DNA of 64,000 nt from Marinomonas sp. MED121 (GTDB taxonomy: Bacteria > Pseudomonadota > Gammaproteobacteria > Pseudomonadales > Marinomonadaceae). Where the stretch lies: positions 1,105,079 through 1,169,078 of the forward strand of contig NZ_CH672429.1 in the NCBI RefSeq assembly GCF_000153025.1. The letters are read 5' to 3'. The notes below the pieces were generated by a model. That model had not been told where the DNA came from and did not search any database. It saw only the letters and a list, made by a program, of their open reading frames with translations. Below are positions 1 through 11,168 of this stretch, one piece after another; position 1 is the first letter of the stretch, and each line of letters begins with the position of its first letter. The translations under genes were made by a program, and so were the position numbers.

Positions 1-1086
1 TATTCGGCAGTGAACTGAATGTGTTATATGGCTATATTGTCCATGAATTTCTAAGCTGCCTGTTCGGCAGTGAACTTTTAAACTCGATTTGCGAAATGTG
101 GCGGCAATTTCTAAGCTGCCTGTTCGGCAGTGAACGGTTCATGATGGCAGTATGGGCGGCGCTAGATTTTCTAAGCTGCCTATTCGGCAGGGAACATGCT
201 GATTATGATGGTTATAAACCTGAGACATTTCTAAGCTGCCTATTCGGCAGGGAACAATAAAATTTCTCCTGTGGTTCGCTTGTCGCATTTCTAAGCTGCC
301 TATTCGGCAGGGAACAATTAAACCCGTTTTCAGGTGAGCTTCAAAAATTTCTAAGCTGCCTATTCGGCAGGGAACCACATGATTGCGTCTAAGTGTCGTC
401 ATGGTGATTTCTAAGCTGCCTATTCGGCAGGGAACAGTTATAAAACTAATTTAGTGGTGATGTAAATTTTCTAAGCTGCCTATTCGGCAGTGAACCTCAT
501 CAACTTTGAGGAGTGTTCGCGTACCATTTTCTAAGCTGCCTATTCGGCAGGGAACGTGCTGGTGAGTTTGTTTTCAGAACAGGTAAATTTCTAAACTGCC
601 TATTCGGCAGGGAACTAGCATTCTACCTCTAATGTTTGATTTAGTTTTTCTAAGCTGCCTATTCGGCAGAGAACAAACACTATCACTTCCGGCAATGCTT
701 GCCCTATTTCTAAGCTGCCTATTCGGCAGTGAACAAGACCTAGACACGCCTATGACTAACGCGATGTTTCTAAGCTGCCTATTCGGCATTGAACTGAAAT
801 AATCAACGTTTGGATCAGCATCGTCCTTTCTAAGCTGCCTATTCGGCAGTGAACTAGCTACAGAGGGCACACCCCCAGCAACCCAATTTCTAAGCTGCCT
901 ATTCGGCAGTGAACGTCAGTCTGAACGCCTGCACCGTCGCCATCGTTTTCTAAGCTGCCTATTCGGCAGTGAACCTGGGCGGTGCGTATCTCTACAATGT
1001 CGTTCTTTTCTAAGCTGCCTATTCGGCAGGGAACCACAAAATACAGGCGTAATTTTGCCGTGTGGCTTTCTAAGCTGCCTATTCGG

Positions 1087-1202
1087 GTGAAGCCAGTTTC
1101 TTTAGGTGCAACGCACCGTCTGGCTGAACGAAAAAACACGGATGTTTTTTCCGGGTGACGCTCATCAAGGATGTGTTAACAAACCAACTAATCTACACCG
1201 TT
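1087..1202 (-). repeat. Array insert copy 1 (116 bp, structured)
   Basis: It follows only the first 20 nt of a repeat (1067-1086) and runs straight to the next intact repeat at 1203. It contains AGCCAG...CTGGCT enclosing the hairpin GGTGC-AAC-GCACC, then a 9-bp hairpin GAAAAAACA/TGTTTTTTC with loop CGGA. The left junction can also be read as a repeat that lost CA in its stem (CGG-GTGAAG for CGGCAGTGAAC), which breaks the Csy4 hairpin. Flanking spacers differ from those at the other two copies. Its origin is unknown. Confidence 0.95.
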
Positions 1203-2002
1203 TTTCTAAGCTGCCTATTCGGCAGTGAACTGATAGAGCTTAACGATGCAATGTTTTATGTTTTTCTAAGCTGCCTATTCGGCAGTGAACCTACGCGGCC
1301 GCTGACAAAAGTATCCTCAATGTTTCTAAGCTGCCTATTCGGCAGTGAACGTCACTACGGATTTTAAGTTCATTTTTCCCTCTTTCTAAGCTGCCTATTC
1401 GGCAGTGAACGCAAGGACAAAAGATAGGGAGTGTTGCGTAATTTTCTAAGCTGCCTATTCGGCAGTGAACATCTGTTAGGTCTATCTCAACTTTGTTCTT
1501 ACTTTCTAAGCTGCCTATTCGGCAGTGAACCCGATGCGCGTATCAATGCTGTGTTGATTGCGTTTCTAAGCTGCCTATTCGGCAGTGAACTAAGTGCTGA
1601 ACCATCCAATGCGTACTCACCTTTTCTAAGCTGCCTATTCGGCAGTGAACAATTAAAGGGTCAGGAGAAGTGAAGGGCTTCTTTTCTAAGCTGCCTATTC
1701 GGCAGTGAACGTCGTTGCAAAGTCAGGCTCAACTCGAATACTTTTCTAAGCTGCCTATTCGGCAGTGAACGACAAAATCAGAATTTTCAAACGTACCAGT
1801 TTTTTCTAAGCTGCCTGTTCGGCAGTGAACTCTTTCTTGAACCATTTTTTGTTAAGCATTACTTTCTAAGCTGCCTGTTCGGCAGTGAACGCTAATCGTG
1901 AACCTCAGTTTCACTACACAATTTTCTAAGCTGCCTATTCGGCAGGGAACTGCATTTGATCGACCTTAGCACACACTTAAATTTTCTAAGCTGCCTATAC
2001 GG

Positions 2003-2118
2003 GTGAAGCCAGTTTCTTTAGGTGCAACGCACCGTCTGGCTGAACGAAAAAACACGGATGTTTTTTCCGGGTGACGTTCATCAAGGATGTGTTAACAAAT
2101 CAACTAATCTACACCGTT
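2003..2118 (-). repeat. Array insert copy 2 (116 bp, structured)
   Basis: Same length and same position relative to the repeat as copy 1, after a damaged repeat at 1983-2002 that has CTATACGG instead of CTATTCGG. It differs from copy 1 by only two substitutions (TTCATC for CTCATC, AAATC for AAACC). All hairpins are conserved. Confidence 0.95.
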
Positions 2119-3398
2119 TTTCTAAGCTGCCTATTCGGCAGGGAACAATTCGACGACGCGGTCGACTCCATAAACCAATTTCTAAGCTGCCTATTCGGCA
2201 GGGAACCGCTGCAGCGTGTTAGCTGACGCCGCCTTCAATTTCTAAGCTGCCTATTCGGCAGGGAACGCGGTTGCCAGGTTAATTCGTGAAAGCCTAGATT
2301 TCTAAGCTGCCTATTCGGCAGGGAACCATTAGAAGTTGAAATAGGTGATGGTTCTGAATTTCTAAGCTGCCTATTCGGCAGGGAACGGCCCCGAAGGTAT
2401 AAACCGTCTTTTGAGTTATTTCTAAGCTGCCTATTCGGCAGGGAACACGATACTATTAACGCTGCTTTTTTTATTTAATTTCTAAGCTGCCTATTCGGCA
2501 GGGAACGTGCTAAAAGCCTGATTTTCACCTTTTAAACTTTTCTAAGCTGCCTATTCGGCAGGGAACTGAAGGGTCGTACTTCAAAGCACCTTCGGTTATT
2601 TCTAAGCTGCCTATTCGGCAGGGAACTTACGGGTGATTTAGCCACACTTGATAACTTATTTCTAAGCTGCCTATTCGGCAGGGAACGCGTATGGGTCTGT
2701 TGCGTGTGCAAAAGTATATTTCTAAGCTGCCTATTCGGCAGGGAACACGGTTTTTACTGGAATCACGCGATTGGTGACTTTCTAAGCTGCCTATTCGGCA
2801 GGGAACCTTTAGATGTAACCCTTTTACAGGGCATTGTATTTCTAAGCTGCCTATTCGGCAGGGAACGAAGGTGAGGGTGAAATTAATAGTAAAACAGATT
2901 TCTAAGCTGCCTATTCGGCAGTGAACTGTTTGGTATGTCAGGATTAATTGATGCTCAATTTCTAAGCTGCCTATTCGGCAGGGAACCAGAATGAGGACGG
3001 TGATGTACTCGAGAGCGTTTTCTAAGCTGCCTATTCGGCAGGGAACATTCTTAGCGGCATAACCCACAAAAACTAACTTTTCTAAGCTGCCTATTCGGCA
3101 GGGAACTCTGTTATGTGGCTGTCAAAACTAAATTAAATTTTCTAAGCTGCCTATTCGGCAGGGAACAGTATAACTTAGTAACAAATGATGCCGCGAACTT
3201 TCTAAGCTGCCTATTCGGCAGGGAACAAAAGGTTTCATGTTCCCTTTTTGAATCCTTTTTTCTAAGCTGCCTATTCGGCAGGGAACATAATCACAATGGC
3301 TGATGGTAACGGTAATGATTTCTAAGCTGCCTATTCGGCAGGGAACGTTGTAGTCATTGTAGTGTCGATCAGCGTACATTTCTAAGCTGCCTATTCGG

Positions 3399-3514
3399 GT
3401 GAAGCCAGTTTCTTTAGGTGCAACGCACCGTCTGGCTGAACGAAAAAACACGGATGTTTTTTCCGGGTGCCGCTCATCAAGGATGTGTTAACAAACCAAC
3501 TAATCTACACCGAT
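3399..3514 (-). repeat. Array insert copy 3 (116 bp, structured)
   Basis: Third copy, after the damaged repeat at 3379-3398 and close to the leader end. It differs from copy 1 at about two positions (GTGCCG for GTGACG, CCGAT for CCGTT). It separates the two leader-proximal spacers from the 21-spacer block. Confidence 0.95.
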
Positions 3515-3662
3515 TTTCTAAGCTGCCTATTCGGCAGGGAACCTTTTTCAGATAATACCGTTGCTTGGATTGATTTTCTAAGCTGCCTATTCGGCAGTGA
3601 ACTTGAAGTGGAAAACGATTCACGCATTTACCCATTTCTAAGCTGCCCATTCAGCAGAGACC

Positions 3663-3768: not shown

Positions 3769-4407
3769 TTAGAACAAGGGCACTGCCCCTAGATTCTCGG
3801 CAGTATTTGATTTGGAGCTGAGTCCATAACAATCAAAAAAACCCGATTGTTTTTTGTCTAATAGTTTCATTTCAATAAATAGTGGAAACTTGCTGCTTTT
3901 CTCAGGAGATCTTTGTTTAGTTTCTTGACTATGCAAATAAATAAAAGGCAATTTACTTTCATATTGAGGTTTGGTTTTTTCTAATTCCTCAAAACACTCT
4001 GCCAAAGGTTTTCCTGACTTTAACGACCATAGCTCAGCCTTCTTTTGCATCTCTTTGTCGATACGCGCCGGACTTTTGACACTTTTGCGCGTATAGGTCA
4101 CATAAGACACATCAGCAGGCACGGGCTTCACCCCTTTAACATGCGCATAATCCTCTAAACGTACCAACCAATTAGTGATATTAAGCTGTTCTAATTGTTC
4201 AGCGTCTTCAGCAAAGAGCCTGAGTTTATTCCCTAATGGAAATTTGACTTTCTTGTATTCGGGAAACCCTACCGCTATTTTTGACTGATTCGCAGCCACC
4301 TTGTTTTCAACAAGGGCAATATGCACTTGTTGAAAGACATTTTGCCAAATAAACCCAAGTGAAATCTCAGCATCTGGTAATAGGGTAATTTCTTGGTAGT
4401 AGTTCAT
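3769..4407 (-). CDS. cas6f: Type I-F crRNA endoribonuclease Cas6f/Csy4
   Basis: This enzyme cleaves the precursor crRNA at the 3' base of the repeat hairpin and stays bound to it in Cascade. The family is recognised from the N-terminal MNYYQEITLLPDAE segment and from its place as last cas gene before the array. With the ATG at 4407 the histidine in QQVHIAL is residue 29, matching catalytic His29 of the characterised Csy4, so I prefer it to the GTG two codons upstream. The protein is 212 aa, slightly longer than usual (about 187). The gap from csy3 is very short, so translation is probably coupled. Confidence 0.95.
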   Translation of the reverse strand: MNYYQEITLLPDAEISLGFIWQNVFQQVHIALVENKVAANQSKIAVGFPEYKKVKFPLGNKLRLFAEDAEQLEQLNITNWLVRLEDYAHVKGVKPVPADVSYVTYTRKSVKSPARIDKEMQKKAELWSLKSGKPLAECFEELEKTKPQYESKLPFIYLHSQETKQRSPEKSSKFPLFIEMKLLDKKQSGFFDCYGLSSKSNTAENLGAVPLF

Positions 4408-4416
4408 ACTCACCGC

Positions 4417-5448
4417 CTATTTGTCACTTTCACCAAAGACACCACCTCGCACTAGCACCGCCATGACATAATGTTCATCTTCGTCACGTTGAAGTTCTTC
4501 GCCACGGGCCCATTTATCAAAATGCGTATAGAAGTCTTGTTTCTCTTTAGGGGTTCGATACGCCTTACCTAAATTAGTAACGGCTCCAAATGGCTCTATG
4601 GCTATTGGCCCTGCCGTTGCTTCTTCATCGTCAAACTCAGGGTACCAAGTATCAATGGAACGAAGGGCATTCCCTAGTTTTTGTGAATGCATTGCAGCCT
4701 GTTCATTAACAGAATATAGGATTTTGCTCTTCTTGTTTTTGCTATTGCCTTTATCAAGCACCAGCTCTTCACTTGGGTAAACTTCTTGAGCCTTACCGAC
4801 TTTAGCAAAGCAGTTAATTTCTAACATGAGGTGATTGGATTCACTGGATAATACTTGCGCTATACGATCCGCTAGGCTGTGCACTTGCTCATCATTATGG
4901 TCAAAATGACGTGTACTCAATTGAGTAGCGTCAAATGTCCAACTTTGTTCTGCCCCTTTATTTAGTGCTTTTATTTGAACTTCAATCTCTTCAGCGCCGA
5001 CTCGGTTACGCCACATAAAACGACCATTTGCTAAGTTAGTGGCATACCGTTTCGCGAGCTCATAGCAGCTATGTTTTTCAATATAGTTTTTTACCGCCGC
5101 GCTGTATGTTTGTTTAAACTGGGCGTTATTACAAGCCGATGGCGTTGCCAATCCACCTAATACTTTCAGGGTGAAGTGGAGCTTTAAAGTATCTTGCTCT
5201 GGCTCCAGCGCACAAGCATCTACACGTTGTAAATTCGCTTTTTCTACTTCAGCATTTAACTTAGCAGGGTCATTCTGCACCGCCGCTTTTTGACGATTTG
5301 AAATGGTGCCTCGTACTGATTTTTCTTGTAATTTCAAAGGACTGCTTTGTTCTTTATCATTCCATTTAGTACCGTAAAAGTAGCCATCTGATGGCACGAG
5401 CTTCTTTTCGAATGCTAATACGGATGCGATGTCTTTGTTTTTAGCCAT
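4417..5448 (-). CDS. cas7f: Type I-F Cascade backbone Cas7f/Csy3
   Basis: A 343-aa protein of normal family length, beginning MAKNKDIASVLAFEKKLVPS and ending with the typical EHYVMAVLVRGGVFGESDK-type tail. Cas7f subunits form the helical backbone on the crRNA spacer; their thumbs kink the guide so that every sixth base is unpaired, which matters for the regulatory RNA described upstream of cas3. The gene lies 11 nt after csy2 and just before csy4 in the same operon. No lesions are visible. Confidence 0.96.
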   Translation of the reverse strand: MAKNKDIASVLAFEKKLVPSDGYFYGTKWNDKEQSSPLKLQEKSVRGTISNRQKAAVQNDPAKLNAEVEKANLQRVDACALEPEQDTLKLHFTLKVLGGLATPSACNNAQFKQTYSAAVKNYIEKHSCYELAKRYATNLANGRFMWRNRVGAEEIEVQIKALNKGAEQSWTFDATQLSTRHFDHNDEQVHSLADRIAQVLSSESNHLMLEINCFAKVGKAQEVYPSEELVLDKGNSKNKKSKILYSVNEQAAMHSQKLGNALRSIDTWYPEFDDEEATAGPIAIEPFGAVTNLGKAYRTPKEKQDFYTHFDKWARGEELQRDEDEHYVMAVLVRGGVFGESDK

Positions 5449-5459
5449 TATGATGTTCC

Positions 5460-6359
5460 TTATTCATATGAGTTAATTGGGTTATTTTGTTGGCAAAGGT
5501 AAAGGTCATTTTCCAAATCAGGGTAGTAATGCCATAGCATGTCATCAAGATGTCTAATCTTATGAGCCATGACAAATTCACCTAAAGTGATAATGCTTTC
5601 AGCAAATCGGTGGGGCACATCTGGATCTCTTTGATTCTTCGCCTTGCTAGGGTAAGAAAGCCCTTGAAAGCCAGTGGCAATCGGCACTATCCAGCCTGTC
5701 ACTTTTCGTTGACTGCTCCAGACAATGCTCTCATCTTCAAGCTGCTCACAAGTATGATTGACAGTTAAGTAACTTAGCATGGCATCTAAGGCATCTTCAC
5801 CTTGTGCCATAGTGTCTGCCATAAGGTCACGTCGTTCGATCAGAGCATATCCCGGCATGAGTTGACGCAACACTTGAGCGGTCTCTTTATCATCATTAAT
5901 ATCGATAGATTTAATTTCTGGCATTTGCATGCTGATTAAGTCACCACTGGCGACTTTCATTCTGGCTATGATATTTTGTAATTGTGTTATGACATCTTGC
6001 TGATCATAAATACCTGCTTCTTCATCACCTTCAAGCTCAATCACTAATGAGACATCAAGGTGACAACGAGCCTCTTCAATAAAAGCAGAACGAGTGCCAT
6101 CTTTATCTAATGGGTTTGCCGTTCCGATAATTGAAGAGACAAAGTCACCCTCTCCTTTATGCGTTTGTAGATCAAAGTCATGACTGATCACGGCGGTACT
6201 CGAAAAAGTTAAAGCTTTAAAGCCTTGATCATGCAGTTTACGCTCCAAAGCATGACTAAAACCCAACCAAGCGGTCATGGCAGGAAAACCTATGGTAAAA
6301 GGGCTAGATAGAGCATTCGCATTATGAATTTTCAGATGCGGTAAAATAAGCAGATTCAT
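5460..6359 (-). CDS. cas5f: Type I-F Cascade subunit Cas5f/Csy2
   Basis: The 299-aa product starts MNLLILPHLKIHNANALSS with the family segment FTIGFPAMTAWLGFSHALER. Cas5f caps the crRNA 5' handle together with Cas8f. The start codon overlaps the end of csy1 by 4 nt, indicating translational coupling. The conserved GFQGLSYPSKAKNQRDPDVPHRF-type region near residue 230 is present. The reading frame is intact. Confidence 0.95.
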   Translation of the reverse strand: MNLLILPHLKIHNANALSSPFTIGFPAMTAWLGFSHALERKLHDQGFKALTFSSTAVISHDFDLQTHKGEGDFVSSIIGTANPLDKDGTRSAFIEEARCHLDVSLVIELEGDEEAGIYDQQDVITQLQNIIARMKVASGDLISMQMPEIKSIDINDDKETAQVLRQLMPGYALIERRDLMADTMAQGEDALDAMLSYLTVNHTCEQLEDESIVWSSQRKVTGWIVPIATGFQGLSYPSKAKNQRDPDVPHRFAESIITLGEFVMAHKIRHLDDMLWHYYPDLENDLYLCQQNNPINSYE

Positions 6360-7642
6360 CTTAACCCCTCCTTGTTATTTGCCACTATTTTTTCGATAGC
6401 CAATAATTCTTCATCCGCTAATGAAACTGGCTTAGCAATTACTTTTTGGTAGCTCTGAATAAAGCTGCGCGAGATTTGACGTATTATCACCTCTAACCAT
6501 TCATCTGATTCCAGTCTTAAATCCTCGTGCTCTGGATACAACCATTTTTTCTGCTCAAGGTTTAATTCGCTCGATACATCTCCTTTATAATCTTTTAAGC
6601 AGAGACGAACTTGCCACATGGCTTGGATGACATGATCCATATAGGCTTGAAAAAGATTATCCCGAGCTGTGCGAAGGTTGCGGTTGGGTAATACAGACTT
6701 GTCATAAGAGGTACTAAGTAGCTGATGAAAAGCCGTGAATATAGACTTAGCTGACCAAGGGTTTAAGGTCTCTTTAAAAAATTCTTGCTTAGGTAATCTA
6801 ATATTTCTGTTTGAAAGCGTCGGGGGTACTGACGCTAATAGATGAGCTTTACCCGCATTTTGATTATTTAGCACACTTATGTTTTGTGGTTTAGTGCCAC
6901 CAAAACCGATTGTGGTTAAGCCATAAATTTCACGATAGCCATCAACATGGTATTGATTCGCTTTTTTACAAGCTCGCGCTGTTTTAACCTCTTCTGCAAA
7001 CCTCAAATTATCCAGTCGCTTTCTTAACTCAAATAAGTGGCCTGAGTGGGTTAACAAAGACAATAAATGGTATTCCCCTTCATCAACAGGAAAGTAGACC
7101 TGTTTTATCTTGGAACTAGTAATTAGCTCTTCATCAGGTTCCACCATTTTTAAAAAGCCTTTACGAAGCGCTTGGTAGTCACCATTAACTTGGTCTAACA
7201 AGCTTCGCGCTAGAGTCGTTTCTTGCTCAATATGTTCTAATAGTGTATTCGCATCACCCATAATTAAAGTAAGAAATTTATACACATCTAATGCGGCCGC
7301 ATTTCCCAAGGCATCGAGTTTCACATTAAGATTCCCCGATCGAACAAAGCCATCTGCTCTGCTATCACAATGCGCAATAATAGAAGACACATAGCCATTT
7401 TTATTTTTTCTCGCACTTGGATGGCTGAAAGTACAAGGATGTGAAGCAATAGAGATCTGACCCGCTCTTTTTGCCGCATCAGGTAACCAATTTGCTAGGG
7501 TAAAATTAGCTTCACATTCGTGCTCTTTCTCTAGTATTTCCCATTGCTCCATGTCCGATTTTAAATTTTTCTTAAGCCAAGCCTCTTTTCGTTCCGTAAA
7601 AAATTTCGTTATTGCTGGATCTATCACATTCCTGTCCTCCAT
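6356..7642 (-). CDS. cas8f: Type I-F Cascade large subunit Cas8f/Csy1
   Basis: This 428-aa protein matches Csy1 in length and carries the family hallmark GGTKPQNISVLNNQNAG near residue 250, followed by the helical C-terminal region. Cas8f recognises the CC PAM and, with Cas5f, holds the 5' handle. The start overlaps the cas3 stop by one base. It is the subunit that would read the CC flanking the regulatory target at 11016-11017. Confidence 0.95.
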   Translation of the reverse strand: MEDRNVIDPAITKFFTERKEAWLKKNLKSDMEQWEILEKEHECEANFTLANWLPDAAKRAGQISIASHPCTFSHPSARKNKNGYVSSIIAHCDSRADGFVRSGNLNVKLDALGNAAALDVYKFLTLIMGDANTLLEHIEQETTLARSLLDQVNGDYQALRKGFLKMVEPDEELITSSKIKQVYFPVDEGEYHLLSLLTHSGHLFELRKRLDNLRFAEEVKTARACKKANQYHVDGYREIYGLTTIGFGGTKPQNISVLNNQNAGKAHLLASVPPTLSNRNIRLPKQEFFKETLNPWSAKSIFTAFHQLLSTSYDKSVLPNRNLRTARDNLFQAYMDHVIQAMWQVRLCLKDYKGDVSSELNLEQKKWLYPEHEDLRLESDEWLEVIIRQISRSFIQSYQKVIAKPVSLADEELLAIEKIVANNKEGLR

Positions 7643-10600: not shown

Positions 10601-10728
10601 ATTTCAGGGTCTAGTTTTTGTTGAAATAGGAGTGAAGCCTTTCCCCAGTCATGAAGAAGAGCAGCCATCGCAGTCAATGATTTGATCACAGGAAGGTACT
10701 TCCAGCTGTTATCAGATACTCTATTCAT
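7642..10728 (-). CDS. cas3: Cas3 nuclease-helicase of type I-F, without the Cas2 domain
   Basis: Degrades DNA bound by Cascade. Visible motifs: HD-nuclease LLHDWGK (about 25-30) and SHHRLP (120-125); helicase Walker A STGSGKT (335-341), DEID (497-500), SSAT (527-530) and the motif VI region QMAGRVRRHR (771-780). I-F Cas3 normally begins with a Cas2 domain of about 95 residues. Here the ORF opens directly in the linker before the HD domain (MNRVSDNSWKYLPVIK), and no cas1 or cas2 lies upstream. The start overlaps the stop of a 19-codon ORF (TAATG). The 1028-aa frame is otherwise intact. Confidence 0.95.
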   Translation of the reverse strand: MNRVSDNSWKYLPVIKSLTAMAALLHDWGKASLLFQQKLDPEIKTKFKGDPIRHEWISCILFKVFVTNSAKEGSDEEWLSTLISDGIKDADFQQKGLENIDKPLVALPTAASLIAWLIVSHHRLPLPRDRHLCDQQRDKKNASLSDLLNRMTQAWGYENPSEIYNVLLPKCFKFPEGLLSESEQWITQLKLQAEALRRQLPLVAEIMKNGSWRVVLHHARLSLMLGDHYYSSQDKDKNWQSSIDLYANTNRETKALKQKLDEHLVNVAQTATTTASLLPYFESNPLKVKGLAALSVQSDTPRSFRWQDNAVMSLVNWRARTKDKSQGYFVVNMASTGSGKTIANAKIMQAVSEDQQSLRFILALGLRTLTLQTGDEYRNRLNLEKSDLAVLIGSKAVFELHKSGNNLDKDEGCFEGANQGSESLESLQDESDVLHWQGVLPEDKLSTVLTKEKDRKLLHAPVLACTIDHIMAATETKRGGRYILPCLRLMSSDLVIDEIDDFSGDDLIAIGRLVHLAGMLGRKVMISSATISPDLALGFYNAYQQGWNVFAASREQSSKINCVYVDEFNTQCELVESGSKEIVQFQTFQHHFIEKRVNELKQQTPKRKADIIPCNRVEGADLGEQYFEHVKQAILIKHSQHSTIDNQSQIRVSFGVVRIANIRPCMELTQHLLGCEWPDEIEIRCMAYHSQQVLLLRHEQEKHLDQVLKRKEKAGETPAAFSDPIIRQHLSSCHSNNIIFILVATPVEEVGRDHDFDWAIIEPSSYRSIIQMAGRVRRHREGPIEQANVGLLQYNYRGYQDKEERVFNRPGYETDRATQLISHDIKQLLDEKSLLHSLDAVPRIQKHQNLDPNSSLADLEHFATARTLGIADINKEQSLIKQKQGRFNRRVRAGESQSFWSNHLQGHLVGYWWLTALPQYFKRFRKSEPSVQLYLIKKEGVTAFHQRDDHGGYNPIELIFNIKHHPMDDRQESRLWLRREYSALVSQYSQSEEGEFITSLKFGEINFTDRGEQGEYSYNDQFGLVRTR

Positions 10729-10787
10729 TAATCTTTCTCATCCATAGAAATCAACGCTTTATCAACATGCGTTAACTTTAATTCCAT
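10728..10787 (-). CDS. Possible 19-codon leader ORF coupled to cas3
   Basis: A short ORF (MELKLTHVDKALISMDEKD) ends in TAATG, sharing one base with the cas3 start. The cas3 start itself has GAGAAAG at a plausible ribosome-binding distance, so the ORF may be fortuitous or may couple cas3 translation to upstream ribosomes. It does not resemble the end of a Cas2 domain. Confidence 0.2.
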   Translation of the reverse strand: MELKLTHVDKALISMDEKD

Positions 10788-10796
10788 TAATCAAAA

Positions 10797-10952
10797 CTAA
10801 TAACCTAGAAATTTTTTTATCTCATTTACAAGTTTGACCAACATAACAAGAGTACCCAGAAACTCTGTACGCTTTAAAATATTAAATAACCAGCAACGTA
10901 CCTTTACTAATACTCTATTTATTCCAAATACGAGCGCTATAAGCTTTTTCAT
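10797..10952 (-). CDS. Candidate 51-aa cationic hydrophobic peptide (CreT-like toxin?)
   Basis: This 51-codon ORF begins MKKLIALVFGINRVLVKVRC and ends NEIKKFLGY. It has about ten Lys/Arg, two Glu and long hydrophobic stretches, as expected of a membrane-active peptide. AAGGA lies 11 nt before the ATG. It sits in the roughly 280-nt untranslated leader of the cas operon, downstream of the promoter targeted by the crRNA-like RNA at 11070-11144. That is the layout of CreTA modules, in which a crRNA-like antitoxin represses a toxin through Cascade. I do not recognise a homologue; toxin function is inferred from context only. Confidence 0.45.
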   Translation of the reverse strand: MKKLIALVFGINRVLVKVRCWLFNILKRTEFLGTLVMLVKLVNEIKKFLGY

Positions 10953-11017
10953 AGATAAAACAGTCCTTAATTTTTCCCTAGACTGTATACTGAATGATCA
11001 AATTAATTTTTTCAACC

Positions 11018-11046
11018 ATTATAGATTTAATAATAAACTTTTATAA
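11018..11046 (-). promoter_or_regulatory. Promoter of the cas operon, covered by a Cascade target site
   Basis: On the minus strand a perfect -10 box TATAAT (11023-11018) lies 17 bp from a weak -35 TTATAA (11046-11041) in AT-rich DNA, giving a start near 11011. The -10 is immediately followed by GG, which is the CC PAM at 11016-11017 on the plus strand. The protospacer of the adjacent crRNA-like RNA starts at 11018 and runs across the -10 and spacer toward the -35. Cascade bound there would block RNA polymerase. Confidence 0.7.
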
Positions 11047-11061
11047 GTTTTTAAAATTCGC

Positions 11062-11067
11062 TATGAT
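11062..11067 (+). promoter_or_regulatory. -10 box of the crRNA-like RNA gene
   Basis: TATGAT lies seven bases before the expected start near 11074, at the foot of the first degenerate repeat. The -35 region (about 11039-11044) is weak and overlaps that of the divergent cas promoter. Confidence 0.5.
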
Positions 11068-11069
11068 TA

Positions 11070-11144
11070 CAGGACTGCTAACTAAGCAGCTTAGAAAATT
11101 ATTGATTTGATAATTTATTTACTACCAAGCAGGTAGCTAATGGC
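11070..11144 (+). ncRNA. creR: crRNA-like regulatory RNA (CreR/CreA type) upstream of cas3
   Basis: Degenerate repeat 1 (11070-11097) keeps a 5-bp/5-nt hairpin CTGCT-AACTA-AGCAG and the exact 8-nt handle CTTAGAAA of this system's repeats. Degenerate repeat 2 (11117-11144) keeps CTACC-AAGCA-GGTAG, with a compensatory base-pair change, but its handle has decayed. Between them is the 19-nt pseudo-spacer ATTATTGATTTGATAATTT. The guide matches a CC-flanked site at 11018 on the same strand at positions 1-5, 7-11 and 13-17; 6 and 12 mismatch, the positions Cas7 leaves unpaired. The target covers the cas -10 box. Csy4 could process both hairpins. The symbol reflects type, not proven identity. Confidence 0.85.
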
Positions 11145-11168
11145 ACTCTTAAAGGGTGCCATTTTTTT
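11140..11168 (+). terminator. Intrinsic terminator of the crRNA-like RNA
   Basis: ATGGCACTC pairs with GGGTGCCAT around the loop TTAAA (9 bp, one G-T wobble) and is followed by seven T. It starts just after the second hairpin of the crRNA-like gene. No protein gene on the plus strand lies upstream for it to serve. Confidence 0.9.

Follow-up and report, generated by a model that had tools for sequence, protein, structure and literature searches.

A mini-CRISPR unit in the 64-kb stretch of DNA analysed here (the window) encodes a guide RNA that is predicted to be released by Cas6f and taken up by the Csy complex and that probably represses the divergent cas operon without cutting the DNA. Two degenerate repeats around a short guide keep their Cas6 hairpins, and the first of them, psiR1, keeps the 5' handle, which in sequence and predicted fold is the anatomy of CreA/CreR. 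As for these RNAs, a PAM-flanked, partly complementary partner site is present near the unit within the cas locus. A chance origin of the match between guide and site is very unlikely. We infer that the guide is transcribed and processed, that it represses, and that the peptide gene and the cas genes behind the site share a single transcript.

Anatomy of the mini-array and its cas locus

The whole unit occupies 11070-11144 on the plus strand and points away from cas3 (Table 1). An earlier note on this DNA had described two hairpin-keeping degenerate repeats, an exact handle and a strong terminator behind them, and all were present when the sequence was audited by script. The same audit identified psiR1 as the sole case in the 64-kb window, outside the array, of a perfect 5-bp hairpin combined with CTTAGAAA. 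The predicted fold of the guide RNA with its terminator beat 200 of 200 shuffles (z -4.3), and RNA fold prediction indicates that the guide is able to fold on itself. Cas6f is predicted to cut after 11136, a position taken from I-F processing, which would yield a 47-nt RNA. At gathering thresholds, Rfam gave 53 matches, every one an array repeat, and left the mini-array unmatched.

Table 1. Features of the mini-array, the target site and the cas locus (window coordinates).
Feature	Position	Strand	Remarks
CC PAM (11016-11017) and 17-nt target ATTATAGATTTAATAAT (11018-11034)	11016..11034	+	15/15 non-6n positions match guide
psiR1, degenerate I-F repeat	11070..11097	+	stem CTGCT/AGCAG 11075-11089; 20/28 positions as in array repeat
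psiR1 handle CTTAGAAA	11090-11097	+	exact copy of array handle
psiS, 19-nt guide	11098..11116	+	read from sequence
psiR2, degenerate repeat	11117..11144	+	stem CTACC/GGTAG 11122-11136; 16/28 positions as in array repeat
Intrinsic terminator of guide RNA	11139..11163	+	11-pair stem ahead of a T run; 1 found, shuffle mean 0.2
Predicted guide-RNA promoter TTTATA-16-TATGAT	11040..11067	+	weak; 1 found, shuffle mean 2.9, not above shuffles
Predicted divergent promoter	10987..11015	-	-35 TTGAAA 11015-11010 abuts PAM; weak -10 CAGTAT 10992-10987; geometry as in relatives
51-aa ORF (MKKLIALVFG...)	10797..10952	-	cationic, amphipathic; longest ORF between site and cas3
19-codon ORF	10728..10787	-	one-base overlap with cas3 start codon
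cas3f, 1028 aa	7642..10728	-	without N-terminal Cas2 domain; TIGR02562 from model position 103
csy1 (cas8f)	6356..7642	-	profile match
csy2 (cas5f)	5460..6359	-	profile match
csy3 (cas7f)	4417..5448	-	profile match
cas6f	3769..4413	-	profile match
I-F CRISPR array	1..3662	-	runs past first base of window; repeat GTTC[AC]CTGCCGAATAGGCAGCTTAGAAA

Guide and target agree at positions 1-5, 7-11 and 13-17 and disagree at 6 and 12; from position 18 onward the match is lost. This bears out what the earlier note had described, a crRNA-like RNA partly complementary to the DNA ahead of the divergent cas operon, with mismatches within positions 1-17 at 6n only, as in CreA/CreR. The site ends 55 nt ahead of the CTTAGAAA handle of psiR1 and lies 290 nt upstream of the divergent cas3 start. 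Its exact pattern (0 mismatches) occurs once in the 5.15-Mb genome. With up to two mismatches the pattern is found at three places in the genome, the guide itself included, and a reversed control also at three; the weight rests on the exact match only, because the loose pattern is no commoner than the reversed control. Beyond the exact target, the genome holds one other CC-flanked site, with two mismatches.

The type I-F1 gene set is complete for csy1-csy2-csy3-cas6f, Cas3f and an I-F repeat array. The Cas2 domain (PF21384) is not matched in the window Cas3, while P0004 and L102 do match it, and the window protein starts within what is, in relatives, the linker between the Cas2 and HD domains. 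Among the best 120 Cas3f proteins listed, the domain is absent from six, that of the window included. Neither the I-F Cas1 family nor PF01867 had a match in the genome (97% complete, 13 contigs), in which the array repeat forms one array only. The closest Cas3 relatives among the fetched loci are found on the Vibrio plasmid pMBL287 (66%) and in another genome (65%); both have cas1 and a full Cas2/3, with no unit in the stretch examined. Since these relatives have the former without the unit, cas1 and the Cas2 domain have apparently been replaced by the mini-array and the 51-aa ORF. The earlier note mentions neither this loss nor the 51-aa gene.

The cas-proximal repeat of the array (3635-3662) is itself degenerate (CTGCTGAATGGGCAG). 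The newest repeats of active arrays tend to be perfect copies, and a degenerate repeat at this end would fit a loss of adaptation. The array also contains three 114-nt non-spacer elements with inverted repeats (1087-1200, 2003-2116 and 3399-3512), which are 98-100% identical; each takes a spacer's place beside a truncated repeat, and no further copy was found in the genome.

The 51-aa ORF has a single homolog in the protein collection, P0002, which is 69% identical over the full length and identical in the last 24 residues. P0002 is encoded on an 8883-nt contig, as is a Csy1 84% identical to that of the window, and the two presumably share one contig; none of the best 120 Cas3f proteins listed comes from an 8883-nt contig. 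The peptide has a net charge of +8 and a hydrophobic moment of 0.57, and structure prediction returned one long helix (pLDDT 81, pTM 0.39), with a pTM too low for a search by fold. At E <= 1 neither Pfam nor PHROG gave a match to it, it has no KilA-N domain, and no relative of P0002 was found on the viral contigs. The order-level search with the ORF retrieved its own copy and one match at E=0.0096 that carries a stop (2/390 genomes). The terminator scan found none between the 51-aa ORF and cas3.

Related units in other type I-F loci

The survey covered 130 loci: 80 from named genomes (the best of 93), 15 from the genus, 28 from the order, 4 viral, 2 from plasmids, and the window. In the order sample 52 of 390 genomes matched, and the genus sample yielded a Cas3f match in 15 of 48. 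The window duplicates L001, L082 and L104 were omitted, as was L105; no locus was dropped for being without a Cas3 match, and L087 and L097 represent one genome. Hairpin-handle units near cas3 were paired with CC-flanked partners at most 500 nt away and scored at the 15 non-6n positions.

The resulting scores were bimodal, with 29 of 136 candidate units matching a nearby CC site at 13-15 of the 15 positions and the remainder peaking at 8. A score of at least 13 was reached by none of the reversed guides (0/136), none of the complemented guides (0/136) and one of the shifted sequences (1/271). An earlier run with other exclusions had given 29/142, and the later run excluded a wider stretch beside the unit; this change removed L013, L019 and L081 and added L039, L051 and L103, so that the two runs together comprise 32 loci. 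The published creA unit of Acinetobacter LoGeW2-3, which the first scan had excluded as an array, both of its repeats keeping the handle, was recovered at 14/15 in the second. The four viral-contig Cas3 loci (30-37% identity) had no counted unit. One unit scoring 14 (L098) was dropped, its 'guide' running into an array-like repeat.

In a cross-locus test of 23 candidates, the guide matched its own flank at 13 or more positions in 18 cases, and only 2 of the 506 other pairings did so, both with the guide of L023, a locus that was entered twice. The five candidates without such a match were those of L010, L014, L078 and L095 and one of the two in L023. The window guide, which scores 15/15 on its own flank, averaged 8.9 on the flanks of the 22 others and never exceeded 11 there. 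Across the 29 loci of the earlier run, the match was 0.83-1.00 at positions 1-5, 7-11 and 13-17, a rate partly selected for; the low rates in the same loci at positions 6, 12 and 18 (0.45, 0.28 and 0.38) and over positions 20-32 (average 0.29) were not selected for.

The covariation of guide and target that the earlier note had proposed to look for in relatives was seen in two homologous module pairs. In L033 and L039, from two Acinetobacter species, guide positions 9-10 read CG or TT, and the sites likewise. In L090 and L095, from the genus of the window, the repeat flanks and a 67-aa ORF are conserved, and guide and site both differ. The match has not decayed behind retained hairpins in the 28 other loci, which keep at least 13/15; it has partly decayed in L095, where positions 1-5 and 7-11 match and of 13-17 only 16 does, a total of 11/15 that taken alone lies within background. 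L095 is not counted among the 29 loci. Within the genus, three of the 15 genomes with a Cas3f match carry a unit scoring at least 13, that of the window included, and similar or larger cas3-csy1 gaps without a detected unit were seen in L014, L017, L021, L030 and L057.

What lies behind the site differs between loci. At 12 of the 29 loci, 63-152 nt lie between the end of the site and the start of csy1 homology, and the csy operon is therefore the natural target there. These 12 loci favour a self-limiting role over an antitoxin, the two functions that the earlier note had proposed; the window's 51-aa ORF, with its homolog, speaks for a possible guard role. L009, L013 and L019 share a ATACTGAATAAGTA motif in the csy1 leader, between target and csy1. 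Elsewhere, other genes occupy this position: a HAD-family hydrolase gene (PF12710; L052:9359-10207) and the conserved 67-aa ORF (L090:4757-4960 and its L095 equivalent) lie between the mini-array target and csy1. Homologous 36-aa hydrophobic ORFs (L033:5402-5512 and the L039 equivalent) follow the target between cas1 and cas2-3, and a small-protein guard is possible for these.

The relatives also bear on where the promoter lies. At the 21 sites oriented as in the window, a -35-like hexamer is found beside the PAM, with a mean score of 1.92 at offsets 0-2, against a mean of -0.46 (sd 0.58, maximum 0.92) over 57 control offsets; with the window removed, the mean is 1.79 and the control maximum 1.08. 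TTG begins at offset 0, 1 or 2 from the PAM in 12 of the 21, and in the window GG is followed by TTGAAA. A PAM context effect could be an alternative cause of this CAACC preference. Sigma-70 scans of the window made no single promoter stand out, with scores overall not above shuffles, and found no strong promoter on the minus strand (best score 5.8, shuffle mean 7.7). The earlier note had the site cover a perfect -10 of the cas promoter. A minus-strand TATAAT does lie inside the site (11023-11018), but its role as the cas -10 is doubtful, its partner -35 being weak and the -35 of relatives being adjacent to the PAM. We have set that assignment aside, as the geometry of the relatives points to a promoter starting where the site ends. 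We therefore consider the Csy complex likelier to sit against the -35 than on the -10, and either placement would hinder RNA polymerase.

Probable autorepression and its alternatives

Under autorepression, the mini-array RNA would be excised by Cas6f and then loaded into the Csy complex. The 17-position match, open at 6 and 12, would yield too short an R-loop for Cas3 licensing; the site is predicted to be bound and not cut because 17 positions are in register with little match beyond. In the account given in PMC7296934, type I-F1 R-loops of wild-type length or longer are needed to trigger Cas2/3, and short ones bind only. Acinetobacter CreA, as described in PMC10097628, pairs at 17 of its 20 guide positions; it represses via the Csy complex, which it needs, whereas Cas1 and Cas3 are dispensable. 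In the window, a bound Csy complex would abut or cover the promoter and in this way block RNA polymerase; the repressed transcript is predicted to carry the 51-aa peptide gene and then cas3-csy1-csy2-csy3-cas6f. Such a loop may set the level of the Csy complex: excess would repress, and occupation by array crRNAs or anti-CRISPR inhibition would release. A 32-nt footprint would extend as far as the -35 predicted for the guide RNA's promoter, and the guide may thus limit itself. Several features count against autorepression. The site is 290 nt from cas3 with the 51-aa ORF between, unlike in the 12 csy1-near loci; sites in some relatives precede a 36-aa ORF, a 67-aa ORF or a HAD-family gene; the minus-strand promoter is weak; the closest fetched relatives are without the unit; few of the genus genomes with a Cas3f match carry one (3 of 15), and comparable cas3-csy1 gaps occur without it; and the guide can fold on itself.

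Some of these features suit a guard module similar to CreTA or CrePA, where the guide would silence either a toxic 51-aa peptide or a toxin RNA encoded by the 290-nt leader, and Csy loss or inhibition would poison the cell, creating addiction. We regard this as possible, if rather unlikely. The 51-aa ORF is the longest between site and cas3 and has a full-length, 69% identical homolog; it has no Pfam or PHROG match, however, and with no terminator before cas3 in the scan, a toxin would probably be co-expressed with the cas genes. The peptide is charged (+8), amphipathic and modelled as one long helix, and P0002 and the 84% identical Csy1 both come from 8883-nt contigs. Homologous 36-aa hydrophobic ORFs stand behind the site in two Acinetobacter species, and the published I-F CreTA, in the layout described for it, is similarly divergent; yet in 12 of the 29 loci the 63-152 nt between site and csy1 homology leave little space for a toxin gene. 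The two functions could also be combined, in an I-F system that loss of cas1 and the Cas2 domain would have left with a fixed memory and with all that remains of its operon under a single RNA-guided switch. Its Csy-mini-array complex would repress a membrane-active 51-aa peptide of a new family together with cas3-csy, acting as throttle and addiction at once. Csy loss or inhibition would then boost Cas synthesis and free the guard toxin. We consider this combination unlikely.

That the unit is a functionless leftover of a decaying array, or a chance similarity of AT-rich sequence, is highly improbable. Both repeats are degenerate (20/28 and 16/28), but stems and handle are kept amid decay elsewhere and the terminator follows directly. 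In favour of such readings are the AT-rich, almost palindromic sequences of guide and site, the lack of the unit in the closest relatives fetched, and the homologous L095 unit, which is down to 11/15, within background; against them stand the 15/15 match, the single exact site in the genome and the controls (0/136, 0/136 and 1/271). We give equally little credence to the idea that a Csy complex beside the -35 targets the promoter of the guide itself, or that it activates the cas transcript instead of repressing it. The site does lie between two divergent predicted promoters, and the 32-nt footprint reaches the -35 of the guide at 11040-11045, but we know of no activator surface on Csy, and the CreA/CreR cases, as described, act through repression.

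If autorepression is true, RNA-guided self-control extends to an I-F operon presumably unable to take up new spacers, and adaptation is excluded as the reason to keep such an operon regulated. The survey adds a simple rule that can be checked: pairing falls on guide positions 1-5, 7-11 and 13-17, and many loci have a -35-like element directly against the PAM. It also suggests that the first gene behind a switch of this kind recurrently encodes a small protein. Should the 51-aa gene prove toxic, dosage control and addiction would depend on one and the same switch.

Comparison with known systems

The unit is of the known CreA/CreR kind, since autorepression in types I-B, I-E and V-A, the I-F CreTA, and the reported I-F1 mini-arrays precede it. 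Shmakov et al. (2023, Nucleic Acids Res.) reportedly described standalone I-F1 mini-arrays aimed at cas8 promoters and cargo genes, with one I-F1 case tested. As reported, these share with the present unit the subtype and the logic, and with many of the relatives surveyed here the favoured cas8f/csy1 promoter.

CreR, in the accounts available of Liu et al. (2023, Cell Host Microbe), is a mini-CRISPR with limited complementarity to the cas promoter (PMC13131331, PMC12737573, PMC12948488), and RNA-guided cas autorepression is described there for I-B, I-E and V-A (PMC13131331; review PMC12737573). The present unit is likewise a partly complementary mini-CRISPR near a cas operon, with Cas autorepression predicted. 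It differs from CreR as described in being of type I-F, in having a 51-aa ORF before cas3, and in belonging to an operon that has neither cas1 nor the Cas2 domain.

The nearest system by subtype is the Acinetobacter I-F CreTA, reported from three strains, LoGeW2-3 among them (Wang et al. 2023, PMC10097628). In that description it has two degenerate I-F repeats with kept hairpins, a CC PAM, mismatches at or near 6n and a divergent target, as in the window, and its guide is 20 nt long, against 19 nt here. The Acinetobacter module is flanked by cas3 and csy1, and what it represses is an RNA toxin containing a 33-bp mini-ORF. The window unit, in contrast, stands upstream of cas3, with the 51-aa peptide as the longest ORF behind its site. 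In CrePA, as outlined in PMC12737573, a KilA-N protein toxin is under CreA; the logic would be common if the 51-aa gene is toxic, although the window ORF has no KilA-N domain or Pfam match. What appears new here, judged against open-access papers and the mini-arrays as reported from Shmakov et al., is the kind of operon, devoid of cas1 and the Cas2 domain, the unit's place ahead of cas3, and its link to the 51-aa gene.
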